Shown here piece after piece: positions 4,055-63,951 of a DNA stretch of 64,000 nucleotides (the stretch's first letter is position 1; each line of letters starts with the position of its first letter). The stretch covers positions 3,918,035-3,982,034 of the forward strand of contig NC_015125.1 in assembly GCF_000202635.1 (NCBI RefSeq), given 5' to 3'. The position numbers and the translations under genes are program-made. The notes beneath the pieces are model-generated. The model worked only from the letters and a program-made list of their open reading frames with translations. It was not told the DNA's origin and searched no databases. This DNA comes from Microbacterium testaceum StLB037 (GTDB lineage Bacteria; Actinomycetota; Actinomycetes; Actinomycetales; Microbacteriaceae).

Positions 4055-4076
4055 TGTCGGACCCCCGATCTACGGT
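4055..4076 (+). promoter_or_regulatory. PafBC-type DNA-damage promoter of the exonuclease gene
   Basis: TGTCGG (4055-4060), 10 nt, TACGGT (4071-4076), then 6 nt to the ATG at 4083. It matches the known RecA-independent mycobacterial promoter (TGTCRG, 10 nt, TAnnnT) and predicts a leaderless transcript. Confidence 0.75.
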
Positions 4077-4082
4077 GACCCC

Positions 4083-4817
4083 ATGACCCTGTGGCAGGCC
4101 GAGCCGCTCCCCCTCTTCCAGGCTCCCGAGTGGACGCGTCTCGTGGGCGTCTTCGATCTCGAGACGACCGGTGTCGATGTCGTGAACGACCGCATCGTGA
4201 CCGCGCACGTGGGGGTCCTCGACGCCGACGGTCACGTGATCGATGCACGCGACTGGCTGGCCGATCCGGGCGTGGATATCCCCGACGGCGCCGCCGCGAT
4301 CCACGGGATCACCTCCGAGCGGGCGCGAGCCGACGGCGCTCCGGCCCCGCGTGTCGTGGCCGAGGTGGTCGAGGCGCTGAGCGCGCTGTTCGCGGCCGGC
4401 ATCCCCGTGGTGGCTTACAACGCGCCCTTCGACTTCTCGATGCTCAAACACGAGGCCGTGCGGCACGGGGTCGCCCCGATCGAGGCGCCCTCGCCGGTGA
4501 TCGATCCGCTCGTCGTCGACAAGACCTACGACCGCTATCGCCGCGGCAAGCGCACCCTCTCGGTCGTCGCCGAGCACTACGCCGTGCCGCTGGAGTCGGC
4601 TCACGAGGCCTGCGCCGACGCGGTCGCCGCCGGTCGCCTCGCCCTGGCTCTCGCCGACCGGTTCGCCCCGTGGCTGCCCGCCACGCTCGAGGAGTTGCAC
4701 ACGCGCCAGATCTCCTGGGCCCGGGCCCAGGCGGCGAGCCTCACCGAGTACTTCGTCAAGATCGGTCGTCTGGATGCCACGGCTCCCCCGCTCGACGGGG
4801 CGTGGCCGATCCGCTGA
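4083..4817 (+). CDS. DnaQ-like 3'-5' exonuclease (DEDDh family)
   Basis: A 244-residue stand-alone exonuclease of the DnaQ/epsilon type. All five DEDDh residues are visible: D25 and E27 in FDLETTG, D117 in YNAPFDFSML, and H174 and D179 in HEACADAV. Such enzymes remove nucleotides from 3' ends using two metal ions, in proofreading or repair. There is no polymerase or helicase domain, so it is not DnaE or DinG; it resembles the separate exonuclease-domain proteins of actinobacteria. The ATG at 4083 is supported by the leaderless promoter ending 6 nt before it. That promoter type suggests induction by DNA damage, which fits a repair role. The C-terminal 65 residues (after LALALADRF) have no catalytic motif I recognise. 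Confidence 0.85.
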   Translation: MTLWQAEPLPLFQAPEWTRLVGVFDLETTGVDVVNDRIVTAHVGVLDADGHVIDARDWLADPGVDIPDGAAAIHGITSERARADGAPAPRVVAEVVEALSALFAAGIPVVAYNAPFDFSMLKHEAVRHGVAPIEAPSPVIDPLVVDKTYDRYRRGKRTLSVVAEHYAVPLESAHEACADAVAAGRLALALADRFAPWLPATLEELHTRQISWARAQAASLTEYFVKIGRLDATAPPLDGAWPIR

Positions 4818-5045
4818 GAGGCGAAGAAGGACCGTTGATTGCGGCCGATCGCGTGGGACGTGCGCACGGACGTTGCCGGACGCCGCGATCGGTGGTCCGG
4901 TACTTCCCGGCGGGCGCGACCTCCTCTACGTCGGCGGTCCGGCTGAGGATTTCTCCCGGATGTCCGCCCCTTCGCCGAATGTGACGTCCTCCACACCGGC
5001 CATCCGACCGAGCTCCTCCCCCGGCATCCCACCCCTCCCCGCCGA
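4818..5045. other. Intergenic region, no gene seen
   Basis: No coding frame or clear terminator with a T-tract. CCGATCGCG (4845-4853) can pair with CGCGATCGG (4884-4892) around a 30-nt loop, which might act as a weak terminator for the exonuclease gene. Confidence 0.3.
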
Positions 5046-5067
5046 TGTCGGAGGTCCCCGATAGCGT
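5046..5067 (+). promoter_or_regulatory. PafBC-type DNA-damage promoter of the DUF222-HNH gene
   Basis: TGTCGG (5046-5051), 10 nt, TAGCGT (5062-5067), then 6 nt to the ATG at 5074. Spacing is identical to the uvrA, uvrB and exonuclease promoters. Confidence 0.75.
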
Positions 5068-5073
5068 TTCGAC

Positions 5074-6699
5074 ATGGACACTCTCGCCTCCCCCGCAGGC
5101 CGGCCGTCGCCGCCGGTGCGGGCGTGCGACGGGGTCCCGTGGCCCGCCGATGAAGAGCTCGACGACGAAGCGGCGTGGGCGCGGCTGCTCGATCTCGGCG
5201 TCGCGGACGACTCCGACGACGGACTCTCCCCTGCCGAGGTCTCCCCCGACGATCTCACCGCCCCCTTCGATGCCGTGTCCGCCTCGGTATCCGATCTCGA
5301 TGCGGTCCTCGGCCATCTCGAGCTGATCGCCGCCGAGCGGCAACGCCTCGCGGCCGAAGAGGACCGCCTCATCGCGACCGTGCTGCGTGACGCCGCCGCC
5401 GATCCGACGCCCTGGGTCGGCCCCGACCCGACCCTCGACCCCGCGTGGGAAGATTCGCGGGGCCGCACCCTCGGTGCGGTGCGACGCGACCGCATCGATC
5501 TCGCGCAGCGCGCTGCGGCTGCCGAAATGGCGGTGCGTCTGCGCCTCTCGGAGCAGACGATCCGCACGCGCGCCACGCACGTCGAGGTCCTGCAGGAGCG
5601 CTGCCCTCGGCTGTGGGACGAGTTCGCCGACGGACGGACGTCCGAGCGCCACGCCCTCGAGGCGGCCCGGCTCGCGACCTCGCTGCCCCACGACGACACG
5701 ACATGGAGCGCGTTCGACGCTGGCGTCGCCGATACCGCGACCGCACTGACGCCCACGAAGTTCGCCGTCGCCGCGCGTGCGCTCCGCGAGCGCGTGCACG
5801 CCGAGTCGGTCGACGCTCGCCACCGCCGCGCCGCGCGAGATCGCGGAGTGTGGATGACGCCCGAACTCGACGGCATGGCGTCCCTCAACGCCCTCCTCCC
5901 CGCGGAGAGAGCACGAAGCATCATGGCGCGCCTCGATCGCGCCGCTCGGCACCTGCGCGCCGCACCCGACGAGGAGCGCACGCTGGCGCAGCTCCGCGCG
6001 GACGTGCTCGCCGACCTGGTGACCGCTCCCGCCCCCGACGCGGCGACCGCCGGCGATCTCAGGCCCGCTCCCGCCCCCGACGCGGCGACCGCCGGCGATC
6101 TCAGGCCCGCTCCCGCCTCCCACGGGGCGACCGCGGGCGATCCGCCACCCGCTCCCGCGCAGCCGGGCGAGGCCGCACACCGGGGCGAAGCCGCACCCAT
6201 CCCCGCGGCAGCGCGAACCAACCCCTCCTCGCCCACGGTCGTCGTCACCATCCCCGCGCTCGCCCTCCTCGGCACTGACGACCATCCCGCAACGCTTGAG
6301 GGATACGGCCCGATCGACCTCGACACCGCGCGCCGCCTCGCGGGCGAGGCCAGATCCTGGATCCGCCTTCTCACCCACCCCGTCACGGGCGCCCCTCTTG
6401 TCCTGGATCGCCAGACCTACCGCGTTCCCGCCGCCCTGCGCCGCTGGCTCGGCGTCACGTCGCCCACCTGCGTCTTCCCCGGATGCAACCGCACCGCCCG
6501 CGACTGCGATCTCGACCACCTCACCGCCTGGGCCGACGGCGGCACCACGAATGCCGACAACCTCGCGCCGGAGTGCCGACATCACCACCGCCTTCGTCAC
6601 GAGACCCGGTGGTCGCCCGCGCACGACCCCGTGACGGGCGACCTGCGGTGGACGTCTCCGCTCGGCGGCACGTACGACACCGATCCGCCCCCGTTCTGA
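5074..6699 (+). CDS. DUF222 / HNH endonuclease (13E12 repeat family)
   Basis: A 541-residue protein with an N-terminal DUF222 region (about residues 70-310) and a C-terminal HNH nuclease (about 465-515). The nuclease shows CVFPGC, the DLDH metal-binding pair, GGTTNADNLAPEC and HHHRLRH. The family is called 13E12 in mycobacteria and is abundant in actinobacteria; HNH proteins cut DNA using one metal ion, but the biological role of DUF222-HNH proteins is unclear. Between the domains, three copies of a 14-residue Ala/Pro-rich unit (PDAATAGDL core) make a flexible linker. The start is fixed by a leaderless promoter of the DNA-damage type. Members of the family respond to DNA damage in mycobacteria as far as I recall. 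Confidence 0.85.
   Translation: MDTLASPAGRPSPPVRACDGVPWPADEELDDEAAWARLLDLGVADDSDDGLSPAEVSPDDLTAPFDAVSASVSDLDAVLGHLELIAAERQRLAAEEDRLIATVLRDAAADPTPWVGPDPTLDPAWEDSRGRTLGAVRRDRIDLAQRAAAAEMAVRLRLSEQTIRTRATHVEVLQERCPRLWDEFADGRTSERHALEAARLATSLPHDDTTWSAFDAGVADTATALTPTKFAVAARALRERVHAESVDARHRRAARDRGVWMTPELDGMASLNALLPAERARSIMARLDRAARHLRAAPDEERTLAQLRADVLADLVTAPAPDAATAGDLRPAPAPDAATAGDLRPAPASHGATAGDPPPAPAQPGEAAHRGEAAPIPAAARTNPSSPTVVVTIPALALLGTDDHPATLEGYGPIDLDTARRLAGEARSWIRLLTHPVTGAPLVLDRQTYRVPAALRRWLGVTSPTCVFPGCNRTARDCDLDHLTAWADGGTTNADNLAPECRHHHRLRHETRWSPAHDPVTGDLRWTSPLGGTYDTDPPPF
6025..6150 (+). repeat. 42-bp in-frame tandem repeat inside the HNH gene
   Basis: Three 42-bp units start at 6025, 6067 and 6109; the first two are nearly identical and the third has diverged. 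They encode an Ala/Pro-rich linker between DUF222 and HNH. Because 42 is a multiple of three, copy-number change would keep the frame. Confidence 0.85.
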
Positions 6700-6914
6700 T
6701 CGCACAGCGTTGCCCCGCCGCTCGCCCGCACCCCGACCACACGCGGCAATTCCCCGGCAACCGCGGCACCGCCCCCCACCACCCGCGACGCTGCTTCAGC
6801 CACACGCGCGCAGCTCCACCACTTGCCGCCCAACCGACCACCCGCCGCACAGCTCCACCGCGCCACCAGGCCACCTCGCGATCCGCCCTCCCTCATGAAT
6901 GCCAAACTGAACCC

Positions 6915-7730
6915 GTGACCTGCCGCATCGCCACCGTCCAGATGGAGGCCGTCCCCGGCGACGTCGACGCGAATGTCGCGCGAATCGCGCACCTCGTCGA
7001 CGACGCAGCGGCAGGGGGAGCCGATCTCGTCCTCTTCCCCGAGGCCGCCGTCACGGGGTATGACGAACGTGCTTTCGCGGGCCCGCTCCCCCCGTTCACC
7101 GCCGGCGGATGGTGGACCCGCGTGCAAGACGCCGTCGACCGCACCGGTGTCACCGCCGTCGTCAACACCGCTTTTCAGCGGGAGGGATGCCGCACCCTCA
7201 GTGACGTGATCCTCGCCCCCGGCCGCGAACCGCTCGTCGCCTACGACAAGCAACACCTGCACGACAGCGAGCGCTCCCTCTTCACCCCCGGCGATCACGG
7301 CGCATCGTTCGTTCTGAACGGCCTCCGCTTCGCCCTCTCCGTCTGCTACGACGCGAACTTCCCTGAACACGCGGCCGCCGCAGTCAGCGCCGGGGCGGAC
7401 GTCTACCTCAACAGCGGTGCGTACTTCCCCGGGGGCGAACACCGCCGAGACCTCCACTACGCTGCCCGCGCCCTCGACAACGGCATGTACGTCGCTTTCA
7501 GCGGCCTCATCGGCGCGCCACACGCGTTCATCGGCGGCTCCGCCGTCTTCGATCCCGTCGGCCGACGCATCGCCGCCGTCGACGAGGGCGAGCACGTCGC
7601 CTTCGCCGACCTGGACGCGGGAGTCATCGCCGAGACGCGCGCGCAGCAACGGATGTGGGCGGATCACCGCGACGAGCTCGGCCCCCACCGGCACCTCGGA
7701 TCGCTCGAGACGTCGGGCACCACGCGCTGA
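6915..7730 (+). CDS. Carbon-nitrogen hydrolase (nitrilase superfamily)
   Basis: A 271-residue nitrilase-fold amidase. The Glu-Lys-Cys triad is visible: E in LFPEAAVTGY, K in YDKQHLHDSE and C in LSVCYDANFPE. These enzymes hydrolyse amide or nitrile C-N bonds of small molecules in the cytoplasm; the substrate is unknown. The GTG at 6915 is used because family members begin with a short strand such as CRIATVQME. A CAAACT box ends 6 nt before it, giving a weak leaderless promoter, and no ribosome site is present. The 215 nt before it contain no feature I recognise. Confidence 0.85.
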   Translation: MTCRIATVQMEAVPGDVDANVARIAHLVDDAAAGGADLVLFPEAAVTGYDERAFAGPLPPFTAGGWWTRVQDAVDRTGVTAVVNTAFQREGCRTLSDVILAPGREPLVAYDKQHLHDSERSLFTPGDHGASFVLNGLRFALSVCYDANFPEHAAAAVSAGADVYLNSGAYFPGGEHRRDLHYAARALDNGMYVAFSGLIGAPHAFIGGSAVFDPVGRRIAAVDEGEHVAFADLDAGVIAETRAQQRMWADHRDELGPHRHLGSLETSGTTR

Positions 7731-7853
7731 CCGGCGCGTGCTCTGAAACACCGGCACGCGCCCTCGAGACACAGCACCGCGCCGACCGGCACGCGCCCTG
7801 AAACACCGGCACGCGCCCTCGAGACACAGCACCGCGCTGACCGGCACACGCCC
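7731..7853. repeat. 55-bp tandem duplication
   Basis: Two units start at 7744 and 7799 (TGAAACACCGGCACGCGCCC), with a further partial ACCGGC-GCG copy before the first. The array sits between the converging amidase and RBBP9-like hydrolase genes. Confidence 0.75.
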
Positions 7854-7879
7854 CGGAGCCCGGGACCATGCTCGCGGCC

Positions 7880-8428
7880 TCATTCCCGAACGAGTTCGGC
7901 GAGCACCGTTCTCCCCCATTCCCACTCGTCCAGGCCGCTCGCGGTGTTGAGGTGCCCGAGCCCGCCGGCGTCGCGGAACGCGCTTCCCCATCCCGAGGCG
8001 AAGCGTTCCGCGACCTCGATCGGGCAGTACGGATCGTCGGAACTGGCGACAACCACGCTTCGGCACGAAAGCGGGCGCACCTCGACGCCCACGAAGCTCG
8101 ATGCAGCCGCGCGCGGAAAGACGTCGCCGTCGGGATCCGGAGGGGCGACGAGCAGCATCCCCGCAACCTCTGCATGCGCGGGCCGCGCCTCCCACCCGGC
8201 CGCCGCCCAGCACCCGAGGCTGTGCGCAACCAGGATGACCTCATCGCCGGATCCCGCGCGGTCGGTGACAGCTCGATCGACGGCGTCCACCCAGTCCTCG
8301 AGCTCGGGCTCATCCCATGATCGAGGGGCCACCCGCACGGCCGCGTCACGCCATCGCCTCTCCCACCGGGTCTGCCAGTGCTGCTCGCCCGATCCTCCGA
8401 TGCCGGGAACGATCACATACGCGACCAT
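7880..8428 (-). CDS. RBBP9/YdeN-type alpha/beta hydrolase
   Basis: A 182-residue small serine hydrolase of the RBBP9/YdeN family. It opens with YVIVPGIGGSGEQHWQ, has the nucleophile elbow AHSLGCW, an acid in SSDDPYCP and a terminal histidine in GLGHLNTASGL. The short length is normal for this family. The frame runs on upstream, but ATG 8428 is where family homology begins. It is divergent from an Lrp/AsnC regulator (122-nt gap), which may control it. The substrate is unknown. Confidence 0.8.
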   Translation of the reverse strand: MVAYVIVPGIGGSGEQHWQTRWERRWRDAAVRVAPRSWDEPELEDWVDAVDRAVTDRAGSGDEVILVAHSLGCWAAAGWEARPAHAEVAGMLLVAPPDPDGDVFPRAAASSFVGVEVRPLSCRSVVVASSDDPYCPIEVAERFASGWGSAFRDAGGLGHLNTASGLDEWEWGRTVLAELVRE

Positions 8429-8550
8429 CGATGACCACCCATTCACTTGTGCACCGCGCGAGCGCGCGGCATCCCTTCCACGAGAATGAGGGATGCACTC
8501 GCCTGGCGCATCGACCACAAGCGATGTACAAGCAAATGGAGCCGAACACG

Positions 8551-9000
8551 ATGGAATCACTCGATGCGATCGACCGCCGAATCCTCGAACTACTGCAGAA
8601 CGATGGTCGATTGACGGGGGCCGAGGTGGGTCGGCGGGTCGGACTTTCTCAGCCTGCAGCAAGCGCGCGCATCCTGCGGCTGGAGCGTGCGGGCGTGATC
8701 GCCGGATACCGCGCGGTCGTCGATCCCGCCGCCGTGGGGCTCGTCATCCACGCCGTCATCCGACTGCGCACCACCCACGCCCAGCTCGCCCCCGCCCGCG
8801 AGCTCGCCGAGCGCCTGCCGGAGGTCACGTCCATGGTCCGCGTCACCGGGGAGGACAGTCTCCTTTTCGACGTCAACTGCCCCGATGCCGCGCAGCTGGA
8901 GAAGGTGGTCGACGCCCTCGCGCGCTTCGGCCCCGTGACGACGTCGCTCGTCCTCAGTACCTACCCCCCGAAGCCGCTGCTGCCCACGCAGTCGGCGTGA
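8551..9000 (+). CDS. Lrp/AsnC family transcriptional regulator
   Basis: A 149-residue Lrp-type regulator. The helix-turn-helix is GAEVGRRVGLSQPAASARILRLERAGVI (about residues 20-47), followed by the AsnC ligand-binding domain. In-frame ATGs at 8524 and 8536 are possible, but ATG 8551 has GGAG about 9 nt upstream and matches the family N-terminus (MESLDAIDRRIL). It is divergent from an RBBP9-like hydrolase and is followed by a terminator hairpin facing rpmE2. The ligand is unknown. Confidence 0.82.
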   Translation: MESLDAIDRRILELLQNDGRLTGAEVGRRVGLSQPAASARILRLERAGVIAGYRAVVDPAAVGLVIHAVIRLRTTHAQLAPARELAERLPEVTSMVRVTGEDSLLFDVNCPDAAQLEKVVDALARFGPVTTSLVLSTYPPKPLLPTQSA

Positions 9001-9029
9001 CCGACAGGCTTTCGCATCCCCCCGAAAAC

Positions 9030-9067
9030 GCGAAAGCCCCCCATCCCGAAGGACGAGGGGCTTTCGC
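9030..9067. terminator. Terminator hairpin between lrp-type gene and rpmE2
   Basis: GCGAAAGCCCC (9030-9040) pairs with GGGGCTTTCGC (9057-9067) around a 16-nt loop. It lies just after two converging genes and could serve both. Confidence 0.75.
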
Positions 9068-9085
9068 AGCGAGAACCGCTGAGGA

Positions 9086-9337
9086 TCAACGACCGCCGAA
9101 GTTCTTGAAGCGCTGGTTGAACTTCTCGACGCGACCGGCCGAGTCCATGATGCGCTGCTTACCCGTGTAGAAGGGGTGCGAAGCCGACGAGATTTCCACG
9201 TCGATGACGGGGTACTCCACGCCGTCCAGCTCGATCGTCTTGTCGCTCGAGACGGTCGAACGGGTGAGGAACGTGTCGCCCGAACCGAGGTCGCGGAACA
9301 CGACGGCCTTGTACGTGGGGTGGATGTCAGTCTTCAT
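9086..9337 (-). CDS. rpmE2: 50S ribosomal protein L31 type B
   Basis: An 83-residue ribosomal protein with [16 protein letters not shown] at the start, then FLTRSTV and [21 protein letters not shown]. It lacks the CxxC pairs of the zinc-binding L31 and so is the zinc-independent paralogue. AAAGGA precedes the ATG at 9337. In actinobacteria this gene is often repressed by Zur under zinc-replete conditions, but I see no clear Zur palindrome upstream. Confidence 0.93.
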
Positions 9338-9447
9338 GGGAGGTCCTTTGAGAAGTGGTGCCCTGGATTCTGCCAGGACGTCAAAGTCTGCGGCGCCGAA
9401 GGCACCAACGGGAGAGTCTACCAGGCTGCGTAACGATTCGCGCGCGG

Positions 9448-10230
9448 TCAGACGGCCCGCGCGGCGTACCGCCCCGCCTCGTGCGTGAGCGTGATCTCGA
9501 GCCCGAACGTCTTCGACAGGTTCTCGGCCGTCAGCGCCTCATCCAGAGGACCGGATGCCACGACCTCGCCATCGCGCAGTAGAAGCACGTGCGTGAACCC
9601 GACGGGGATCTCCTCGACGTGGTGCGTCACCATCACCATGGCGGGGGTGGTCGGCGCCTGCGCGTAGCCCGACAGCAGCGTGAGCAACTCCTCGCGAGCG
9701 CCGAGATCGAGGCTCGCCGTGGGCTCGTCGAGCAACAGCAGCTCGGGGTCGGTCATCACGGCCCGGGCGATCTGGACGCGCTTCTGTTCGCCGTCGCTCA
9801 GCGTGCCGAACGTGCGGTCGGCCAGGTGGTCGAGGCGCCACTCGGCGAGCACGCGCAGCGCGCGGCGCTCGTCGATGTCGTCGTACTGCTCGCGCCAGCG
9901 ACCCGTCACGGAGTAGGCCGCGGTCAAGACGACGTCGAGCACCGCCTCCTCCGGCGGAACGCGACGCGCCATCGCCGACGAGGCGAAGCCGATCCGCGGA
10001 CGCAACTCGAAGACGTCGGTCCGGCCGAGCTGCTCGCCGAGGATCGTCACCGTGCCCGACGTGGGGTGGAGCAGCGTGTCCGCGAGCTGAAGAACAGTCG
10101 TCTTCCCCGCACCGTTGGGACCGAGCACGACCCACCGCTGATCGTCCTCGACACGCCAGTCGAGGTGGGACACGATGTCCCGCGTGTTCCGGCGGACGAC
10201 GACGTCGGAGAACTCGAGAACCTGGGGCAT
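9448..10230 (-). CDS. ABC transporter ATP-binding protein (ModF/YlmA-like)
   Basis: A 260-residue single ABC ATPase with Walker [10 protein letters not shown], Walker [13 protein letters not shown] and H-loop VTHHVEE. The signature is LSDGEQKR rather than LSGGQ. No permease or binding protein is adjacent, so its partner or role is unknown; the sequence resembles stand-alone ModF/YlmA-type ATPases. A TAGGCT box (10242-10237) ends 6 nt before the ATG, so the gene appears leaderless. Confidence 0.82.
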
Positions 10231-10292
10231 GGATCTAGCCTACTGGCCTCGACCCGAGCGACCGGATGCCACGCGGCCCCGCCGTGGAGAGG

Positions 10293-14469: not shown

Positions 14470-14491
14470 TGTCGGAACCCCGCCCTACCCT
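14470..14491 (+). promoter_or_regulatory. PafBC-type DNA-damage promoter of an alpha/beta hydrolase
   Basis: TGTCGG (14470-14475), 10 nt, TACCCT (14486-14491), then 6 nt to the ATG at 14498, exactly the spacing of the uvrA and uvrB promoters. Confidence 0.72.
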
Positions 14492-14497: not shown

Positions 14498-15211
14498 ATG
14501 AACGTCATCCTGGTTCCCGGTCTGTGGCTCACCGCCTCCTCGTGGGATGCCGTCATCCCCGCCCTTCTCGAAGCCGGCCATCGCCCCGAGGCCCTGAGCA
14601 TGCCGGGCATCGGAATCCCAGCCGCCGGCTCGGCGCACATCGGCATCGCCGACTGGATCGACGAGGTCGTCCGGGTGATCGACCGCGACGACGAGCCGGT
14701 CGTCCTCGTCGGTCACTCGGGAGGGGCGAACGTCGTGTGGGGTGCGGCCGATGCGCGGCCCGATCGGGTCGCACGCGTCGTCTTCGTCGATGCCGTGCCC
14801 CCGCTCGACGGCGCGCGGATCTGGGAGTTCCCGATCGTCGACGGGGTCGTTCCGTTCCCGGGGTGGGATTCCTTCGACGACGAGGAGGTCGCCGACCTCG
14901 ACGCGCAGACGCGTCACCGCGTCGAGGGCGAGACCACGTGGATCCCCGCCCGCATCCCCACCGATCCGATCTCCCTCTCGGACGACCGTCGCCACGGCAT
15001 CCCGATCACCCTGATCACCTGCCTCATGACGTCAGCCGACACGAGGAAACTCATCGACGACGGCGCCCCGTGGATCGCCGAGCTGGCGGCCGCGGCCGAC
15101 CTCGAGATCGTGGATCTGCCCGGTGGCCACTGGCCGCAGTTCGCGCAGCCCGACGCCCTCGCCCAGGCCCTCGTCGCGGCGATCCGCACGGAGCCGGTGC
15201 GGGCGCGTTGA
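14498..15211 (+). CDS. Alpha/beta hydrolase under a DNA-damage-type promoter
   Basis: A 237-residue alpha/beta hydrolase beginning MNVILVPGLWLTASSWD. It has the elbow GHSGGANV (nucleophile Ser) and a C-terminal His in LPGGHWPQF, so the triad looks complete. The closest recognisable relatives are small esterase-like hydrolases of actinobacteria; I cannot name a substrate. The promoter places it in the presumed DNA-damage regulon, although no nucleic-acid motif is visible. It may process a metabolite or a modified base or nucleoside, which is speculation. It converges on fabG. Confidence 0.82.
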   Translation: MNVILVPGLWLTASSWDAVIPALLEAGHRPEALSMPGIGIPAAGSAHIGIADWIDEVVRVIDRDDEPVVLVGHSGGANVVWGAADARPDRVARVVFVDAVPPLDGARIWEFPIVDGVVPFPGWDSFDDEEVADLDAQTRHRVEGETTWIPARIPTDPISLSDDRRHGIPITLITCLMTSADTRKLIDDGAPWIAELAAAADLEIVDLPGGHWPQFAQPDALAQALVAAIRTEPVRAR

Positions 15212-48795: not shown

Positions 48796-50739
48796 CTACC
48801 GAGCCAGATGCGTGTGGATCGCCTCGGCGAGAGCCGGGCCGATGCCGGGAAGCGCGGTGATCTCGTCGGGCGTGGCGTTCTTCAACGCCGTCACCGAGCC
48901 GAAGTGACGCAGCAGGGCCTTGATGCGGGTGTCCCCGAGCCCGGGCACTTCGGCCAGCACGCTGGTGATGTCGCGCTTCCGGCGCTTACGCTGGTGCACG
49001 ATCGCGAAGCGGTGCGCCTCATCGCGCAGGCGCTGGAGCAGGTACAGCGCCTCGGACGTCCGTGGCAGGATCACCGGGTACTCCTCCCCCGGCAGCCACA
49101 CCTCCTCGAGGCGCTTCGCGATGCCGCACAGCGCGATCTCCTCGTGCCCCGCATCGGCCAGCGCGCGAGCGGCCGCCGTGACCTGCGGTTGTCCGCCGTC
49201 GACGACGAGCAGCTGAGGACGGTAGGCGAAGCGCGGACGCTTGCGCGCCGTCACGACCTCCCCGTCCGCCGTGGCCTCGGCCGAGTCGGGCGCGGCGACG
49301 ATCGCACCGCCGATCGTCTCGGGTTCTTCCTCGTCGGGACGGTCGAGGTACGCCAGGCGTCGCGTGAGCACCTGATACATCGAGTCGGTGTCATCCGTCG
49401 TCTCGGCGACCCCGAAGGACCGGTACTGGTCTTTCCGTGGCAGGCCGTCTTCGAACACGACCATGGATGCCACGACGTTGGTCCCCGAGAGGTGCGAGAC
49501 GTCGAAGCACTCGATGCGCAGCGGCGCCTCGGTGAGCCCGAGGGCTTCCTGCAGGTCCGTGAGGGCCTGCGAGCGGGCCACGTAATCGCTGGTCCGCCGC
49601 GTCTTGTGCAGCATGAGCGCCTGCTGGGCGTTCAGCGTCGCGGTCTTCAGGAGGTCGGCCTTGCGCCCCCGCTGGGCGACCTGCAGGGTGACGGGGCGGC
49701 CACGTCGCTCGCGGAGCCAGGCCTCGAGCTGCTCGGCGTCGTCGGGCAGCTCCGGTACCAGCACCTGACGGGGGATGTCCGCGGCATCCGCGTCTCCGTA
49801 GGTGCGCTGGAGGACCTGGTCGACGAGGTCGGCCCCGGCGATGTCGATCTCCTTCTCGATCGTCGTCGCGCGGACACCGCGCACGCGTCCGCCACGGACG
49901 ACGAAGTGCTGCACCGTCGCGGCGAGCTCGTCCTCGGCGATGCCGAACAGGTCGGCATCCGTGTCGGGTGCCAGGACGAGGGCGCTCTTGCCCAGAACTG
50001 CCTCGATCGCCTGCAGGCGATCGCGATACAGCGCGGCCGACTCGTAGTCCATCGCCGCCGAGGCTTCCTTCATGCGGGCGGTCAGCTGCTTCGCGAAGCG
50101 CTGATCACCACCCGACATGAACGCGACGAAGTCGTTCACGATGGCGCGGTGCTCCTCGATCGTCACTTTCATCGAGCAGGGTCCGCCGCAGCGGCCGATC
50201 TGTCCGGGGAAGCACGGTCGACCCGACTGCATCGCCTTCTTGTAGGAGGAGTCGCTGCACGTGCGGATCGGGAACACCTTGATCATCAGGTCGATCGTGT
50301 CGTGCACCGCCCACACCTTCGGGTACGGCCCGAAGTACTTCGCCCCGCGGATCTTGTGGTTGCGCGTGACGATCACGCGCGGGGCTTCGTCAGCGAGGGT
50401 GATCGCCATGTAGGGGTAGGACTTGTCGTCCTTGTAGCGGACGTTGAACGGCGGATCGAACTCCTTGATCCACATGTACTCCAGCTGCAGCGAGTCGACG
50501 TCGCTCGGCACGACCGTCCATTCGACGCTCGCCGCGGTCGTCACCATACGCCGGGTGCGCTCGTGCAGGGAGTGCAGCGGAGCAAAGTAGTTCGACAGGC
50601 GCGCCCGGAGGTTCTTCGCCTTGCCGACGTACAGCACCCGACCCTCGGCATCCCGGAATCGATACACGCCCGGGTTGGTGGGGATCTCCCCCGCCTTCGG
50701 TCGGTAGGGCAGGTGCGACACCCGTTCTCGGGATGCCAC
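48796..50739 (-). CDS. uvrC: Excinuclease ABC subunit C
   Basis: A 647-residue UvrC. N-terminal GIY-YIG nuclease ([30 protein letters not shown]), UVR motif, a central cysteine region ([29 protein letters not shown]), an endonuclease V-like part ([22 protein letters not shown]) and C-terminal HhH ([18 protein letters not shown]). It cuts on both sides of the lesion once UvrAB has loaded. GTG 50739 lies 3 nt after the uvrA stop, so it is coupled to uvrA and shares its damage-inducible promoter. Confidence 0.96.
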
Positions 50740-50742: not shown

Positions 50743-53709
<2,967 letters not shown>

Positions 53710-53715: not shown

Positions 53716-53737
53716 AGTCTAGGTGGGGCCTCCGACA
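53716..53737 (-). promoter_or_regulatory. PafBC-type DNA-damage promoter of uvrA-uvrC
   Basis: On the minus strand TGTCGG (53737-53732), 10 nt, TAGACT (53721-53716), then 6 nt to the GTG of uvrA. It matches the RecA-independent mycobacterial DNA-damage promoter. Confidence 0.85.
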
Positions 53738-55005: not shown

Positions 55006-57075
55006 TCAGGCGTGCCCGGCCCGCTCCATCGCACGCAGTTCCTTCTTGAGATCCTGCACCTCGTCACGGAGACGCCCCGCAAGCTCGAATTTCAGCTCGG
55101 CCGCCGCGGCCAGCATCTGTTGGGTGAGATCGGCGATCGTCGACTCGAGCTGGTCGGCGCCCTCGGCGGCGATCCCCGTCCGACGCAGCTGCGGCGTCGG
55201 AGACTTGCCCTTGCCCGCCTTGTCGTTGCGGGCGAGCAGCTTCTTGGTGTCGGTCGCCTCGCGGTTCAGCACTTCGGTGATGTCGGCGATCTTCTTCCGC
55301 AGCGGCTGCGGGTCGATGCCGTGCTCTTTGTTGTAGGCCACCTGCTTCTCGCGACGGCGCTCGGTCTCGTCGATCGCGTTGCGCATGGAATCGGTGATCT
55401 TGTCGGCGTACATGTGCACCTCGCCGGACACGTTTCGAGCCGCACGACCGATCGTCTGGATGAGCGACGTCCCGCTGCGGAGGAACCCCTCCTTGTCGGC
55501 ATCCAGGATCGCCACGAGCGAGACCTCGGGAAGGTCCAGACCCTCTCGCAGAAGGTTGATGCCGACGAGCACGTCGTAGACGCCCGCCCGCAGCTCGGTG
55601 AGCAACTCCACGCGGCGAAGGGTGTCGACGTCCGAGTGCAGATACCGGACGCGGACGCCGTGTTCGCCGAGGAAGTCGGTGAGCTCCTCCGCCATCTTCT
55701 TCGTCAGGGTCGTGACGAGAACGCGCTCGTCGCGCTCCACGCGAACGCGGATCTCCTCGAGCAGGTCGTCGATCTGCCCCTTCGACGGCTTCACGATGAT
55801 CTCGGGATCGACCAGCCCGGTCGGGCGGATGATCTGCTCGACCACCCCGTCCGCGATGCCCATCTCGTATCGTCCCGGCGTCGCCGAGAGGTACACGGTC
55901 TGCCCGATGCGCTCTTTGAACTCGTCCCAGCGCAGGGGCCGGTTGTCCATCGCGCTCGGAAGGCGGAAGCCGTGCTCGACGAGCGTGCGCTTGCGCGAGG
56001 CGTCGCCCTCGTACATGGCGCCGATCTGCGGGACCGTCACGTGCGACTCGTCGATCACGAGCAGGAAGTCGTCGGGGAAGAAGTCGAGCAGCGTGTGCGG
56101 GGGCTCGCCGGCCACCCGACCGTCCATGTGGCGCGAATAGTTCTCGATGCCGGAGCAGAAGCCGAGCTGCTGCAGCATCTCGAGGTCGAAAGTCGTTCGC
56201 ATCCGCAGGCGCTGGGCTTCGAGAAGCTTGCCCTGGGACTCGAACTCTTTCAGGCGGTGTTCGAGCTCGTGCTCGATCGTGCCGATCGCGCGCTGGACCG
56301 TCTCGGTCCCGGCGACGTAGTGCGAGGCGGGGAAGATCGGGACGGAATCCATCTTCTCGATCACGTCTCCCGTGAGCGGATGCAACGTGTACAGCGCCTC
56401 GATCTCGTCACCGAACATCTCGATGCGGATCGCGTACTCCTCGTACACCGGGATGATCTCGATCGTGTCGCCCCGCACACGGAAGTTGCCGCGGGAGAAG
56501 TCGACGTCGTTGCGGTTGTACTGCATCGAGATGAACTTGCGGATGAGGGCATCCCGGTCGTACCGCTCCCCCACCTGCAGAGCGACCATCGCGCGCAGGT
56601 ACTCTTCCGGGGCGCCGAGACCGTAGATGCACGAGACGGTCGACACCACGACGACATCGCGACGCGAGAGCAGCGAGTTCGTCGTCGAGTGGCGCAGCCG
56701 CTCGACCTCCGCGTTGATCGAGGAGTCCTTCTCGATGAAGGTGTCCGTCTGCGGCACGTACGCCTCGGGCTGGTAATAGTCGTAGTACGAGACGAAGTAC
56801 TCGACGGCGTTGTTCGGCAAGAGCTCGCGGAACTCGTTCGCCAGCTGCGCCGCCAACGTCTTGTTGTGCGCGAGCACGAGCGTCGGACGCTGCACCTGCT
56901 CCACGAGCCACGCGGTCGTCGCGGACTTACCGGTTCCGGTCGCACCGAGGAGCACGACGTCGGTCTCGCCGGCATTGATGCGCGCGGCGAGGTCGGCGAT
57001 CGCCTGCGGCTGGTCGCCGGAGGGGCTGTACTCGCTGATGACCTCGAAGGGACGAACGGATCGCGTGGCCTGCAT
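55006..57075 (-). CDS. uvrB: Excinuclease ABC subunit B
   Basis: A 689-residue UvrB. Walker [15 protein letters not shown], the beta-hairpin [20 protein letters not shown], helicase motifs ([17 protein letters not shown]) and C-terminal UVR domain ([21 protein letters not shown]) are present. It verifies the lesion and recruits UvrC. ATG 57075 is leaderless. coaE lies directly upstream on the same strand, but the damage promoter is in the gap between them. Confidence 0.97.
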
Positions 57076-57081
57076 GATTCC

Positions 57082-57103
57082 AGCGTAGGCGGGGGCTCCG
57101 ACA
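57082..57103 (-). promoter_or_regulatory. PafBC-type DNA-damage promoter of uvrB
   Basis: On the minus strand TGTCGG (57103-57098), 10 nt, TACGCT (57087-57082), 6 nt to the ATG. Identical layout to uvrA. Confidence 0.85.
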
Positions 57104-57745: not shown

Positions 57746-57842
57746 CCGACGAGGATGCCACACACCTCGCGGGCGCGGCCGGTGGTTTACCATTCAAGAG
57801 AGCCGCGCTCTGGCTTTCTCGAATCCCCGCGGAAGTCTGATC

Positions 57843-58211: not shown

Positions 58212-58214
58212 GCG

Positions 58215-59372
58215 TCAGGCGAGTCCGCCGGGGAGCTCTCCCGTCAGCACCGCCTCGGCGGCCGCGGCATCCGCGGATCCGATGAGCCGCTCCGCGTCGA
58301 ACCCCACCTGACTGGCCAGGGCCAGGCCGGCTCCCACGACGGGGGCCACGGACGTTCCCAGGGCCGAGACGTCCGCCACGACCCGATCGCGGAGAGACCG
58401 CGCGACGCGGCGGACATCGGTCACGCTCGTCGTGACGAAGGCCACCGTGACACCCGTGGTGTCCGTCTCGCCGACGAGGGCCATCGTGGGCGCGTGACGC
58501 CTCGCCGCCGCACGGAAGGTGCGGAGGATGGCGTCCGCTTCTTCGGGACCGAACGCCATGGACACCCGACGGAGATCGTCGATCCGCAGGCAGATCACGC
58601 ACGGGTCCTCCCCCGCCGACTCCGCGCGCGGCAGCAGGATGCTGAGCGCACCGCGGAACGAATCGCGGAACAGGATGCCGTCGCCGTCCACCGTCAGGTT
58701 CTTCGCGGCCGAGTTCACCCGGGACGCCGTGTCGCTCGACCTCAGCGTCGAGGTCACGACGACCGCAGCCACCACGAGGACGAGGGTCAGGAGCGAGGCG
58801 ATGCGCGTGTCGAACGCGGCGCGGAAGAGTTCGCTCTCGGGGCCGAGCGTGACGAACACGACGGCGCGCGCCGTGAACCACACCGACTCGATCGCGAGGA
58901 TCACGGTGAGTCCCGCAGCGCTCCACCGTCCGCGCACGACGCCGCGCCGCGTCTCGATCGCACCGAGGGTCGCGAACAGGGCGTTCCCGAGGAAGAACGG
59001 CACGGCACCGGCCCAGGGGCCGCCCTCCGGCCCCGCCGCGAGAGCGGCGACGATGATCGCCAGCACGGCGACGCCCCAGACGATCAGGGGCACCCGCATC
59101 GCGCGACCGTTGAACGCGGCGCAGCCGAGCCAGATGAAGCCCGTCGCCCCGACGAACACGCCGTTGCCGATCGCGACGGCGACGAAGGCGTCCGGGAGCA
59201 CGAGGCCGATGAGGTAGCAGAGCGCAGACAGGCACCCGCTGAGATAGGCCCCCGACCAATAGCGGCCCGCCACGCCGTCCTTGAGCATCAGGGTGTCGAG
59301 CACGTACATCGTCGTCGATACGAGGATGACCAGAAGCGCCGCGACCTGCAGGCTCACCGAGTCGAGCGTCAC
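58215..59372 (-). CDS. Membrane protein with degenerate GGDEF-like domain
   Basis: A 385-residue protein with about seven membrane helices in the first 215 residues and a cytoplasmic GGDEF-fold region after residue 240 (VICLRIDDLRRVSMAFGPEEADAILRTFRAA). The expected GG(D/E)EF signature is replaced by LVGETDTTGVTVAF, so it is unlikely to make c-di-GMP. GTG 59372 overlaps the histidine kinase stop, indicating coupling. It could be a sensing or scaffold partner for the kinase. Confidence 0.78.
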   Translation of the reverse strand: MTLDSVSLQVAALLVILVSTTMYVLDTLMLKDGVAGRYWSGAYLSGCLSALCYLIGLVLPDAFVAVAIGNGVFVGATGFIWLGCAAFNGRAMRVPLIVWGVAVLAIIVAALAAGPEGGPWAGAVPFFLGNALFATLGAIETRRGVVRGRWSAAGLTVILAIESVWFTARAVVFVTLGPESELFRAAFDTRIASLLTLVLVVAAVVVTSTLRSSDTASRVNSAAKNLTVDGDGILFRDSFRGALSILLPRAESAGEDPCVICLRIDDLRRVSMAFGPEEADAILRTFRAAARRHAPTMALVGETDTTGVTVAFVTTSVTDVRRVARSLRDRVVADVSALGTSVAPVVGAGLALASQVGFDAERLIGSADAAAAEAVLTGELPGGLA

Positions 59373-60988
59373 GGGGTGCTCCCCTGAGTCCGCGGCAGGC
59401 GCACGATGAAGGTGGCCCCGGTGCCGAGCGCCGAGCTCACCGTGATCTCGCCGCCGTGCGCGCGGACGATGTCCCGGCTGATCGCCAGCCCCAGGCCGCT
59501 GCCGTGCGTCGACGAGTTGCGCACCGCGTCTCCGCGGAAGAAGCGGTCGAAGACCCGCCCCTGCTCGGTGCGCGAGATGCCCGGCCCGTCGTCGGCGACA
59601 GCGATCTGCACCGCGGTCTCGCTGACGTCCACCGCGACCGTGACGGTGCCGCCCCGGACGTTGTACTTGATGGCGTTCGAGATGAGGTTGTCGACCACCT
59701 GCCGAAGACGCCGCGGGTCGACGTGGGCGGAGCCGTCGCGCAGGCCGGAGGAATCGATCCGGATGCCGTGATCGGCCGCCCGCGGTTGCTGGGACTCGAT
59801 CGCTGCCCGGACGATCGCCGCGATGTCGGTGTCGGTGGGGACGAGATCGAACTCCGCGCCGTGGCGCGACGCGGCGGACATCGAGAGGATGTCGGAGACG
59901 AGTTCGCGCAGACGGGTCGCATTGCGCTCGGCCACTTCGAGTCGTTCGCGGGTCTCGGCGATGATCGCGGGGTCGTCGAGGGCGAGGTCGAGGTAGCCGA
60001 TGATCGACGTCAGCGGCGTGCGAAGCTCGTGCGACACGCTGGCGACGAGGTCGTCGCGTGCGCGGAGCGCCTGCTCTTCGGCCGTCACGTCGCGGGAGAC
60101 GACGATCGTGCCGGGATCCGCATCCGACCCCGACGGAAGCCGCCGAGCCGTGACGCTGAGCGCCCGGCGGTCCTCCCCGGGGGCGCCGAACCAGACGAGT
60201 TCCCCCTCGAACAGCTCCCCGGCCCTGGCCCGCGACAGCGGGGTGGCCTCGGCCGGCACCGGGGTGGTGCCATCCGCCGCGTAGGCCGCGATGGGCGCAC
60301 CGAGAACGTCGACGGTGGCCTGAAGGCGTGCGTGAGCTTCGTTCGTGACGGCGAGGTCCCCCTCAGGCGTGACCCGGATGACGCCGAAGTCGACGGCATC
60401 CAGCACCTCGGTGACGAGATCCTCCTGCCGCCGCGCGCGGTCAGCGGAGCGACGCAGATCGGCGGACTGCTTCTCCAACAGGGCGCGTTGCGCGCGCGCC
60501 CGGCGTGCCGTCGTGTGCGCGAGGGCCGACAGCGCCACGACGGTGAAGGGCAGCACGAACGTCGAGGACGTGAGGCGCTGTTCGGCATCGTGCACGAGCT
60601 GGAACGTGACGATCGCAGACACTCCGACCAGCACGGCGACCACGCCGCCGACGCCGAAGGTCGAGCCGATCCAGATCGCGGGGAAAGCCCACAGCAGCCC
60701 GACGCCGGCGAGAGGAGCGCTCTCGCGCAAGACGGCGATCGCGACCATGTCGATGACCGGGACGAGTCCCAACGCCCAGGCCGGCAGTGCCCTCCACGGT
60801 GCCAGGATCGCGAAGACCGCGCCGCCGAAGATGACCGTGACGCTGACGGTGAAGAGGGGCGCATTCCGCACTTGACCGAGCAAGGATGCCGAGACCACGA
60901 GCAGCAGAGTCGCGGCGAGCAGCAGCGCCTGATTCGAGAGGATGCTTCGGTGAATCCCGAGTCGCTCCGTGAGTGACAAGCCCGGCAT
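59369..60988 (-). CDS. Membrane sensor histidine kinase
   Basis: A 539-residue kinase. About six membrane helices (residues 15-160), a coiled-coil (AQRALLEKQSADLRRSADRARRQ), a PAS-like region, the His-box (ASVSHELRTPLTSIIGYLD) and a HATPase domain (NLISNAIKYN, DDGPGIS, HGSGLGLAI) are visible. ATG 60988 is favoured over 61000 because TATGGT, which contains the ATG at 61000, is the -10 box 7 nt before it. It is coupled to the degenerate GGDEF gene and converges on a lone response regulator, its most likely receiver. Confidence 0.88.
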   Translation of the reverse strand: MPGLSLTERLGIHRSILSNQALLLAATLLLVVSASLLGQVRNAPLFTVSVTVIFGGAVFAILAPWRALPAWALGLVPVIDMVAIAVLRESAPLAGVGLLWAFPAIWIGSTFGVGGVVAVLVGVSAIVTFQLVHDAEQRLTSSTFVLPFTVVALSALAHTTARRARAQRALLEKQSADLRRSADRARRQEDLVTEVLDAVDFGVIRVTPEGDLAVTNEAHARLQATVDVLGAPIAAYAADGTTPVPAEATPLSRARAGELFEGELVWFGAPGEDRRALSVTARRLPSGSDADPGTIVVSRDVTAEEQALRARDDLVASVSHELRTPLTSIIGYLDLALDDPAIIAETRERLEVAERNATRLRELVSDILSMSAASRHGAEFDLVPTDTDIAAIVRAAIESQQPRAADHGIRIDSSGLRDGSAHVDPRRLRQVVDNLISNAIKYNVRGGTVTVAVDVSETAVQIAVADDGPGISRTEQGRVFDRFFRGDAVRNSSTHGSGLGLAISRDIVRAHGGEITVSSALGTGATFIVRLPRTQGSTP

Positions 60989-61060
60989 GGCCCTGACCAT
61001 AGCGCGAGCATAGGCCGAGCGCGCCCCCTGCCTCGGCGCGGCGACTTTTGGAGAGCGCTC

Positions 61061-61615
61061 TCAGCCGACCCGCCGGGCGATCGCTTCGCTCGTCCATCGT
61101 GCGAACTGCTGCCAGGGATCCTCGATACCGGCTCGCAGGGCCTCGACGTGCATCGCAAGCGTGTCACTCAGTCGGAACCACTCCGTTCGCGCGAACCGCT
61201 CCTCGGCGAACTGCTCATGTCGTCGACGCTCCACGAGGCGATCGCCTCGCTCGAAAGCGAGGAGTTCGTCATGCCACAGGGCTTGCAGCCGCTGCCGTGG
61301 CTGCGCCGTCGTCCCGATCTTGACCCGGTCCTCGAACCGGAGGTAGTACACGACATCGACCCTCGGCGGAGGAAGCTCTCCGTCGACGGGATCACCGACC
61401 CGCCACTCGCACACGGCGCAGAGCCACCCGCTCGGCCAACGTACCCCCAGGCGGGCTCCGCACAGGGCGCAGGGCGAAGGAAGAACGTCCGTGACACCGT
61501 CGTGAGTCCCCGCCCAGTCCGCCGCGACGGAGTAGTGCCAGTCGCACAGGGCGAGGGGCGCGTCCGCCTCCACCGGTGAGACGCACCCGGAGACGACGCA
61601 GACGGTGGATGCCAT
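61061..61615 (-). CDS. Zinc-ribbon GIY-YIG (T5orf172-like) protein under a DNA-damage-type promoter
   Basis: A 184-residue protein in two parts. The N-terminal part has cysteines C6, C11, C24 and H27, and a zinc ribbon C49-C52/C66-C69 (CALC ... CAVC). The C-terminal part has a GIY-YIG-like fold of the T5orf172/MUG113 type: VVYYLRFEDRVKIGTTAQPRQRL with a catalytic-type Arg, and RRHEQFAEERF with a Glu in the expected place. Such domains are nucleases or DNA-binding. The frame is open upstream, but ATG 61615 is set by the leaderless promoter. This suggests a damage-induced nuclease not previously described as far as I know. Confidence 0.75.
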   Translation of the reverse strand: MASTVCVVSGCVSPVEADAPLALCDWHYSVAADWAGTHDGVTDVLPSPCALCGARLGVRWPSGWLCAVCEWRVGDPVDGELPPPRVDVVYYLRFEDRVKIGTTAQPRQRLQALWHDELLAFERGDRLVERRRHEQFAEERFARTEWFRLSDTLAMHVEALRAGIEDPWQQFARWTSEAIARRVG

Positions 61616-61621
61616 GAGCAC

Positions 61622-61643
61622 ACCGTAGACGCCGCCTCCGACA
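61622..61643 (-). promoter_or_regulatory. PafBC-type DNA-damage promoter of the GIY-YIG gene
   Basis: On the minus strand TGTCGG (61643-61638), 10 nt, TACGGT (61627-61622), 6 nt to the ATG. Confidence 0.75.
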
Positions 61644-61650
61644 TCGCGGG

Positions 61651-63903
61651 TCACTCCGCGACGGCATCCTCCATCACCAGGAAGAGACCCGCGTACGGAC
61701 CGAGCTCGAGGGCGAAGCTCTGCAGCTCGTCCACGCGGCCCACGACGTCTCCGGTGGCCGCGTCGACCGCGGTGCTCTGCGGCACCAGCCACTCCGACCG
61801 CACGGTACCCTCGATCGTCTCCCCCGAGAAGTTCAGGACGGTGAGCTGCAGCGGAGCGTCCTCGCGACGACGGTCTCCCCCGTCGAGGCGGTGCACCATG
61901 ACCAGCATGCTGGGGTGTCCGACCTGGGGGATGTCGACCTGGGATGCCACGGCGATGGCGTTGTCCGTCCGGATCCTGAGCACGTCCCGAAGCCCGGACA
62001 GGAACGACGAGGGGTCGTTCTGCTGAGCCGTCAACGACCCGTACAGCGAACGGGCCCGAGGCATTCCGGAGGCGGAGCCGTTGGCATCCGGAGCCACGTC
62101 GAGGAGATCGTGTGCGCCGCGCTCGATCCAGCGGGTGTCACCCGAGGCGATCAGGTGCCGCACGTCGTCGACGGGCACGGTCAGCGAGCCCGTGAGATCC
62201 CAGCCGGACAGGGCGAAGACGCCCGGCTGCCAGGAGTTGTACTTCGCGAGAAGCAGGTGGGCGTCGCGGATCGCGGGTGCGTCCGCCTCGGTGATGTCCG
62301 CCAGGGTCGCCCGTCCCTGCGTCGCCGCGATCAGAGAGGCCGTCGTGCAGGCGATGCCGTTCTGCGTGAAGACCAGGTTGTAATCCGCGTCGACGGTGAG
62401 TTTCTCGGTGAGCTCCGCCCGCACCGTCTCGGCGATCTCGGCTCCGGTGGCCTCGCCGTGACGGAAGGGGTACACCGTGTCGTGGTGGGTCGTCGCCCAG
62501 TGCACAAGCTCGTATGTCAGCTCATCGTGGTTCTGCATCCCGTGCACCAACTGCGCGGGCTCCACGCCGATCTCGAGCGAGGTCGTGAGGGCGAGCCGCA
62601 GGAACTCGGTGTTGGCCGTCGCCAGGGCGTGGTGATACCCCGGCCGCGTGACGAAGTCATAGGACAGGTCGGCTCCGACCGCAGCCGTGTCGCGGATGTC
62701 CTCGATCGTGAGGTTGAGCTCCTGGAACGTGAAGCCGCCGACCTTTCGCACCATGCCCGCGATGATGTGGTTGGCCGCGTGCGAGAGGGGGTGTCCCTCC
62801 GACCACGCCGGGAGACCCTCGGCGCTCTTCTCCACGCCGAGGAAGCCATTGGCGTCGAGCCGGAGAGCGCTCGTTCCGAGATCGCCGAGCGAGTGCAAGG
62901 CATCCCCGATGACCAAGCGCATGCCGGCGAACGTCGGGTCGAGCCAGTTGATGGAGGGCTGCCCCTCCTTGAAGTAATGGAGGTAGACCCAGCGGCGTTC
63001 CATGCCGTCGGTGCCGACGACCGGTGCCGTCGCGCTCCAGTTCGTCTCCTTCACCCCCGGCGTGTAGAAGATGACGCGCTGAAGCTCGCCGATGATGTAC
63101 CCCCGCGCGCTGAGTTCGCGCTCGGTGTCCGCGTCGAGATTCACGGAGTCCCGGCCCGAAGGGACCTCGGGGAGCAGACCCCAGTCCTCGCGCGGGATCT
63201 CGACCATGTGGTAGATCCCGGGATAGTCCTTGTACGCCATCTCCGCGAGACGGAAGTCCGCGCCCTTCCCCGTGTGGCCGGGGACGATGTCGTCGATGAC
63301 GCTCCCCCCGTGCGCGTCCGCGACGTCGGCTACCCGTCGGAAGGCGTTCTCGTCACCGAAGTCCGGGTCGATCTGGGTGCTGATGCGGTCGAAGTGGCCA
63401 TCGACGCTCGGCGTCTCCTGCCAGCCCGTGATCCCACCGGCGCGCTTGACAGGCCCGGTGTGGATGCCGTTGATCCCGACCCATTCGAAGGCCTCCCAGA
63501 GCGTCTCGTCGCCGAGCGCATCCAAGAACGACTCGCCGGGCCGCGTGATCAGCGAGATCGGGTAGGCGGTGAACCACACATCGGTGGACTCGATCGCACG
63601 CCGCGCGTCCGGGCGCGCGTACGGATTGCGCCACATCGACGGCTGGCCCGAGAGTTGGCGGCTCAGAACGTCCGCGTCCTTGAGCATCGACTGGCGCACG
63701 AGCCATTCCACGTACGACGGGTTGCCGCCGTTCGCGTTCCGGGGGTCCGTCAGAAAACGACGAAGCGTGCCACCGCGGAACTGGTCCCGCGGACGCAGAC
63801 GCCGCGGTCGCGCCGGATAGCGCTGCTCGTCGTAACTGATCTCCGTCTGCTCCGCAGCGATCGTCTCGTCATCCATCACGGTGCGCTCGTCGGCATCGTC
63901 CAC
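61651..63903 (-). CDS. GH13 family enzyme, probably maltose alpha-D-glucosyltransferase (trehalose synthase)
   Basis: A 750-residue GH13 (alpha-amylase superfamily) protein. The nucleophile is in [15 protein letters not shown], the general acid in [10 protein letters not shown] and the third acid in MQNHDELT. The start [17 protein letters not shown] and [19 protein letters not shown] are not found in amylases but in trehalose-synthase-like proteins of actinobacteria, which interconvert maltose and trehalose. Identification as TreS is by resemblance only. GTG 63903 has GGGAGG 6 nt upstream. A variant DNA-damage promoter lies about 27 nt before it. Confidence 0.72.
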
Positions 63904-63929
63904 CCGCGACCTCCCTCACGTCATCTCCG

Positions 63930-63951
63930 ACGCTAGTCGTTCCTGCCGACA
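63930..63951 (-). promoter_or_regulatory. Possible PafBC-type promoter of the GH13 gene
   Basis: On the minus strand TGTCGG (63951-63946), 10 nt, TAGCGT (63935-63930). Unlike the others the gene is not leaderless: the start codon is 26 nt further on and has a ribosome site. Confidence 0.5.

Follow-up and report, generated by a model that had tools for sequence, protein, structure and literature searches.

Genome-wide PafBC-type promoters, most of them with a leaderless layout, in Microbacterium testaceum StLB037

We analyzed a PafBC-type promoter element, TGTCRG-N10-TAnnnT (R = A or G), and the genes behind it in a 64 kb stretch of Microbacterium testaceum StLB037 (the window; 69.4% GC), which lies at the right-hand end of the genome's only contig (3.98 Mb), and in the rest of the genome. 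The window held seven matches, compared with a mean of 0.11 and a maximum of 1 in 100 dinucleotide-preserving shuffles. The hexamer TGTCGG by itself was not enriched (68 seen, 64.7 expected), so the signal lies in the combination of hexamer, spacing and TAnnnT box. At six of the seven sites (4055+, 5046+, 14470+, 53737-, 57103- and 61643-), an ATG or GTG stood exactly 6 nt past the TAnnnT box. All six elements read ATGTCGGA, with a G before five of them. The sequence-only reading of this DNA had described this layout for six genes, together with the common sequence and the preceding G, and all of these were found again.

The genes behind these six sites are predicted to be leaderless. On the forward strand, the promoter at 4055..4076 (TGTCGG-N10-TACGGT) leads to the ATG at 4083 of an exonuclease gene (RNase_T, PF00929; 4083..4817), the promoter at 5046..5067 (TGTCGG-N10-TAGCGT) to the ATG at 5074 of a DUF222 gene (PF02720; 5074..6699), and the promoter at 14470..14491 (TGTCGG-N10-TACCCT) to the ATG at 14498 of an alpha/beta hydrolase gene (14498..15211). 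On the reverse strand, the promoter at 53716..53737 (TGTCGG-N10-TAGACT) precedes the GTG at 53709 of uvrA (50743..53709), with uvrC (48796..50739) immediately 3′ of it; the promoter at 57082..57103 (TGTCGG-N10-TACGCT) precedes the ATG at 57075 of uvrB (55006..57075); and the promoter at 61622..61643 (TGTCGG-N10-TACGGT) precedes the ATG at 61615 of a GIY-YIG-like gene (61061..61615; MUG113, E 2.6e-05; T5orf172, E 0.00033). The gene at 5074 had earlier been labelled DUF222-HNH; DUF222 was matched, and HNH was not listed among its Pfam matches.

Two further sites on the reverse strand had been described as keeping the spacing with small changes. This is true of the site at 3845..3866 (TGTCCG-N10-TAAACT), which has an ATG at 3837, 7 nt downstream, opening a predicted leaderless, alpha/beta hydrolase-like gene (2965..3837; NCBIfam matches all under the cut-off), a possible regulon member. 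The site at 63930..63951 (TGTCGG-N10-TAGCGT) is instead an exact match. It has a start codon at neither +6 nor +7 (counted from the TAnnnT box), and the called start of treS (TIGR02455; 61651..63903) lies at +26, making treS the least certain strict regulon member within the window.

Across the genome, the strict pattern TGTCGG-N10-TAnnnT was found at 98 sites, compared with 2 for the reversed pattern, a strong enrichment in the full-genome scan that the sequence-only reading had proposed. When spacings of 4–16 were allowed, there were 117 matches against 31 reversed. About 19 of them were spread across the twelve spacings other than 10, which are near background and confirm the fixed 10-nt spacing. 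The earlier argument that such strict spacing is unlikely by chance thus holds for the window and for the genome. Five divergent pairs of strict sites lie 36–105 bp apart (G000:C1:498797/498844, 2484659/2484695, 2762959/2763017, 3072604/3072683 and 3381675/3381780).

All 98 sites were inspected in their own loci. The called start was at +6 for 60 sites, at +7 for 13, at +8 or +10 for 2, at up to +40 for 15 and beyond that for 8. An ATG or GTG was present at +6 or +7 in 75 sites and was chosen as the gene start in 73 of them. Starts were chosen by frame composition, and sites 4, 10, 18 and 50 were set by hand to +6 or +7, raising the count from 69 to 73. Against an expectation of 25%, the leaderless rate reported for mycobacteria (PMC6448022, PMC3898074), the binomial p for 73 of 98 is ~1e-24. 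In Streptomyces lividans, the transcription start lies on average 6.3 nt from the −10 box (PMC8079986), so that a box at +6 or +7 predicts a leaderless message. Most published leaderless rates fall between 17% and 25%. For primary start sites they are 17% (S. lividans) and 21% (S. coelicolor) (PMC8079986); for genes, the average in Actinobacteria is 19.2% (range 2.3–29.8; PMC3160421). M. avium has a third (PMC3774663), and a smaller M. smegmatis study quoted in PMC6448022 has 40%.

We examined 481.6 kb of the genome's own sequence for leaderless genes in general. Of 140 candidates, 68 had TGTCRK (K = G or T) at the right offset and 72 did not; because the sample was chosen to be rich in PafBC sites, 68:72 is no genome ratio. 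As a group, the 72 without TGTCRK carried no remnant of the element at the expected offset: the mean match to the hexamer was 1.97 of 6 at offset 16 and 1.76–2.15 at other offsets. Seven of them had at least 4 of 6 matches and one had 5 of 6, and the numbers were similar at other offsets. With one mismatch allowed, the genome had 442 matches and the control 145. We did not take this excess as the regulon size because the leaderless genes show little sign of degenerate sites.

To assign functions, we ran Pfam on 96 of the 98 downstream genes, with long ones limited to 900 residues and some ended by the locus edge. The other two were GyrB (L077), recognized by eye, and a near-copy (L074) of another DUF222 gene (L051). 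RadA, ImuA' and TatA were also named by eye, and their domains or neighbouring genes back the names. Replication, recombination or repair accounted for 27 of the 98 genes by manual classing: DnaE, RecA, FtsK, two ExoIII-type nucleases, UvrD, RadA, Tag, RecQ, RecF, SbcD, an RNase_H_2/AAA protein, DnaX, HolB, ImuA', Mfd, AlkZ, a UvrD/PDDEXK protein, RecG, LigA, SRAP, HolA, GyrB, RarA, the RNase_T exonuclease, UvrA and UvrB. The enrichment of repair genes that had been proposed as a check is suggested by this count of targets. Replication and repair genes generally make up 3–5% of a genome. Further nucleic-acid genes were four for DUF222 proteins, one GIY-YIG-like gene and one oligoribonuclease-like gene. 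The four DUF222 genes with a site are the one in the window (5046-6699) and those of L006, L051 and L074; L051 and L074 are near-copies, promoter included.

The start was at +6 or +7 in 23 of the 27 repair genes, the exceptions being RecA (+104; site G000:C1:306941), UvrD (+10), ImuA' (+42) and GyrB (+8). It was there also in 50 of the other 71 genes. The layout therefore follows the promoter class more than repair function.

One target may belong to two damage responses. An imuA'-imuB-dnaE2 operon lies at L062:6436-9401 (G000:C1 from 3003235), with the PafBC element 42 nt before its start. The identity of ImuA' is based on its neighbouring genes, which gave a weak Y-family polymerase match (best E 7.8e-05) and a Pol III alpha match (best E 1e-13). 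In the promoter region, an SOS-like box, GAACACATGTTC, abuts a second −10 box beside the PafBC element. From this arrangement, the operon is likely to be under dual PafBC and SOS control.

The sequence-only reading had named PafBC as the regulator although its genes are not in the window. Adjacent pafB and pafC were found ~31 kb outside it (G000:C1 ~3885251-3887205), and their products match solved PafBC proteins. PafB (330 aa) matched the mycobacterial PafB chains 9fnd and 7p5x at 2–3e-30, and PafC (321 aa) matched 7p5x at 5.5e-28; both carry WYL domains, and PafC carries HTH_PafC (PF19187, E 2.1e-30). The closest solved relatives are the PafBC proteins of Arthrobacter (6sj9; organism from PMC6789036) and mycobacteria (7p5x, 9fnd). 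A PafB stretch, MFERDK..LR.LGIP.ET, is identical in 9fnd, and we take it for the putative DNA-reading region. The order at the locus is pafB-pafC, an 84-aa tatA-like frame recognized by eye, and tatC (E 4.9e-26). The tat genes usually adjoin pafA. The genome has five WYL domains, three of them outside the pafBC pair. At G000:C1:1687107, a leaderless layout, TGTCCT-N10-TAGCGT, was seen ~0.4 kb upstream of another WYL domain.

We compared the motif in 296 genomes of the phylum: 35 from the host's class (its own included), 117 outside the class with a strong PafC match (E up to 1e-15, our cut) and 144 outside with a weak match or none. All 35 class genomes were above their own control (1992 against 324 sites in sum; smallest ratio 1.67), and when an ATG or GTG at +6 or +7 was required, the sums were 1019 and 15. 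After control subtraction, the leaderless share was ~0.59 in the 34 other class genomes and 0.78 in the host genome; shares of single genomes are noisy, and three exceed 1. The leaderless layout is found across the class. The host genome had 102 TGTCRG sites, and three sampled congeners had 21, 49 and 43. Outside the class, the sums were 1144 against 783 with strong PafC and 1585 against 1560 with weak or no PafC.

A more distant genome, G123 (9.7 Mb), had 53 leaderless TGTCRK sites, compared with 2 for the reversed pattern. All 53 were inspected, and one of them opens a 3-residue frame and is surely no gene. The UvrB of G123 is 83–84% identical to those of Peterkaempfera and Streptomyces oceani and 79% identical to that of Planomonospora; G123 may be a Streptomyces. 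Seven of the 53 site genes (RecA, UvrB, RadA, RecQ, DnaX, RarA and ExoIII) matched the 98 genes of M. testaceum StLB037 at ≥40% over 150 residues; among 84 control frames from the neighbourhood, 1 did so (Fisher p 0.0055). By E up to 1e-20 alone, the matches were 10 of 53 and 3 of 84. AlkZ of G123 matches its counterpart at 34%. These sites bear on the statement in PMC9380542 that the M. smegmatis motif was not found conserved in S. venezuelae in an initial search.

At uvrB, we compared the best 80 loci from other records, the nearest UvrB being that of Microbacterium commune (91% identity). TGTCRK-N10-TAnnnT was present upstream in 21 of the 80, and all 21 had an in-frame start at +6 or +7. 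These loci include Microbacterium, Curtobacterium, Arthrobacter, Streptomyces, Mycolicibacterium, Nocardia, Nocardioides and Planomonospora, as well as some metagenome-assembled genomes (MAGs), one of Acidimicrobiales. A leaderless −10 box persists at several loci that lack the element (Rothia, Mobiluncus, Corynebacterium), so the leaderless form of uvrB does not go with the element alone. In L084, L107 and L109, the leaderless uvrB −10 box is present and the PafBC element is missing. In L112, L113, L132 and L119 (two Acidimicrobiia MAGs, one unplaced Actinomycetota MAG and one MAG labelled Acidobacteria), TGTCAC or TGTCGC stands at the element offset before a leaderless uvrB. A bare leaderless −10 box was scored in 47 of the 80 loci, including some Firmicutes and other phyla (one of the 47, L090, is too near a contig end to read); we did not rely on this criterion because scores in other phyla are background.

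We consider it very probable that the primary sigma factor uses these sites as PafBC-dependent promoters and that most of the regulon is leaderless. What is observed here is the motif with its fixed spacing and genome-wide enrichment, the many repair targets, the presence and identity of pafB and pafC, and the position of the start codons. By analogy with mycobacteria, from whose literature the mechanism is borrowed, DNA damage would yield single-stranded DNA, and PafBC would bind it and join the RNA polymerase holoenzyme. In that complex, PafBC would recognize TGTCRG near −26, and sigma would recognize the TAnnnT box at −10. With the −10 box 6–7 nt from the start codon, transcription would begin at or next to that codon and give a leaderless mRNA. 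The position of the element fits that of the −26 motif that PafB contacts (PMC11804915), and the motif reported for M. tuberculosis, TGTCGG-10N-TA-3N-T, has the same form (PMC8151990). This reading predicts that damage induces the genes of M. testaceum StLB037 in a pafBC-dependent way, and it predicts where their transcripts begin.

Several observations weigh against it. The called start was not at +6 or +7 for 25 of the 98 sites, and 65 of the 98 genes (purA, acs, pta and transporters among them) have no evident nucleic-acid role. No match to PF03136, the Pup ligase family, was found in the whole genome, and pafBC is described as tightly associated with the Pup ligase (pafA) locus (PMC8223512); pafA is no part of the regulatory mechanism. 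Outside the class, we counted a genome as clearly enriched when its sites were at least 3 times the control and at least 8 more than it; this held for only 17 of the 117 genomes with strong PafC and also for 7 of the 144 others, showing that the link between PafC and the motif is loose there. The RecA-NDp promoter of M. tuberculosis Rv1955 gives a transcript with a leader (PMC2897130), so this promoter class is not always leaderless. For holA and recG, we compared 30 loci each, from 38 and 39 genomes of the order with a match. The strict TGTCRK element was found at holA in none of the 29 other loci, only in the host's own, and at recG in 2 of 29, both without a start at +6 or +7.

In a looser look, 5 of 30 loci for each of holA and recG had a leaderless −10 box. 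At the element offset, the congener G230 has GGTCGG (holA) and CGTCCG (recG), and a member of the family, G206, has TGACGG (recG); the remaining loci have 1 to 5 of 6 hexamer matches. These degenerate hexamers suggest site turnover. A broader proposal, which we hold with evenly divided confidence, is that a class-wide PafBC regulon is preferentially leaderless by promoter build, gains and loses genes easily, and is used by this Microbacterium-type lineage to put the replicase (dnaE, dnaX, holA and holB), ligase and gyrase under damage control. Under this proposal, damage-response proteins would be made through leaderless translation. A leaderless −10 box already in place would become such a promoter once the hexamer stood at the set distance from it, which would let genes join or leave with ease.

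TGTCGG might be a generic piece of leaderless sigma-70 promoters, unrelated to PafBC, with repair genes often leaderless anyway. The frequency of leaderless genes in Actinobacteria (19.2% on average, PMC3160421), the enrichment of DNA metabolism among M. smegmatis leaderless transcripts (PMC6448022), the uvrB genes that keep a leaderless −10 box without the element, and the non-repair targets that are leaderless nearly as often as the repair genes all fit such an account. Yet the 72 leaderless candidates without TGTCRK have no group residue of the element, sites with leaders exist (recA, imuA'), and outside the class the motif excess tracks the presence of PafC in sum. We think this explanation improbable. 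Equally improbable, in our judgment, is that another WYL-domain activator of the same genome reads the element. There are three WYL domains to choose from outside the pafBC pair, but motif and spacing are those published for PafBC, and the pair by tatA-tatC keeps the PafB stretch taken for the DNA-reading region.

A LexA/SOS regulon would account for the SOS-like box beside the imuA' element, but GAAC-N4-GTTC occurs at 1 of the 98 sites (from 200 nt upstream to 300 nt downstream of the motif start) and the PafBC-type element is not palindromic; we regard it as highly improbable. Chance matches in a GC-rich genome deserve as little credit. TGTCGG alone is at chance frequency in the window, and a few of the 98 sites (e.g. 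1829008 and 2716051) are without a convincing downstream gene, but for the set as a whole chance is refuted by the reversed-pattern, shuffle and start-position controls given above. PafBC-dependent promoters remain the preferred explanation of the sites.

The gene list is a ready one for a probably SOS-independent damage response in Microbacteriaceae, and the sites of G123 point to such a response in a Streptomycetaceae-like genome, where PMC9380542 left the question open. The layout could help explain the over-representation of DNA metabolism among M. smegmatis leaderless transcripts. With it, the dependence of damage-response proteins on leaderless translation can be put to the test.

The PafBC-type regulon is real, in a new host, and its regulator and motif are ordinary. 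The original motif and regulon papers are reportedly Gamulin 2004 and Mueller 2018. The motif, the regulator and the sigma-adaptation mechanism were already known (PMC11804915, PMC6789036, PMC8151990), as were RecA-NDp promoters outside mycobacteria (PMC8223512, PMC5087735). The leaderless layout is strong and, as far as we searched, unremarked, and the site set is unusually large: neither a leaderless rule for PafBC promoters nor the large site set of this genome was found in the literature searched, which covered few subscription journals. In the available text of PMC7790235 and PMC10936776, PafBC and leaderless stand apart, one or the other term entering only through a cited work or as a separate topic. 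In that of PMC2897130, RecA-NDp and leaderless refer to different genes, lexA being leaderless and Rv1955 having a leader. The M. tuberculosis motif often spans −35 and −10 and occasionally lies just downstream of the start site (PMC8151990).

Among known systems, Caulobacter DriD resembles PafBC in being a WYL-domain activator that binds single-stranded DNA and serves a non-canonical damage response (PMC12340889), but its protein and promoter differ. The LexA SOS regulon is also a damage response and probably shares the imuA' operon here; LexA, however, represses through a palindromic box, and that box occurs at only one of the sites. The Streptomyces RecA-NDp promoters (SCO6735) show the same promoter type outside mycobacteria, and the word leaderless is not used in the available text of that paper (PMC5087735). 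The closest system is mycobacterial PafBC/RecA-NDp, with the same element, TGTCRG-N10-TAnnnT, and the same regulator pair. Its targets recA and uvrABC are shared here (PMC8223512), and the imuA'-imuB-dnaE2 operon with its element parallels the mycobacterial PafBC route to dnaE2 (PMC12702967). Unlike the mycobacterial locus, no pafA was found here, and most sites lie at +6 or +7. Strict motifs also stand here before dnaE, dnaX, holA, holB, ligA and gyrB, as may also be the case in the mycobacterial regulon.

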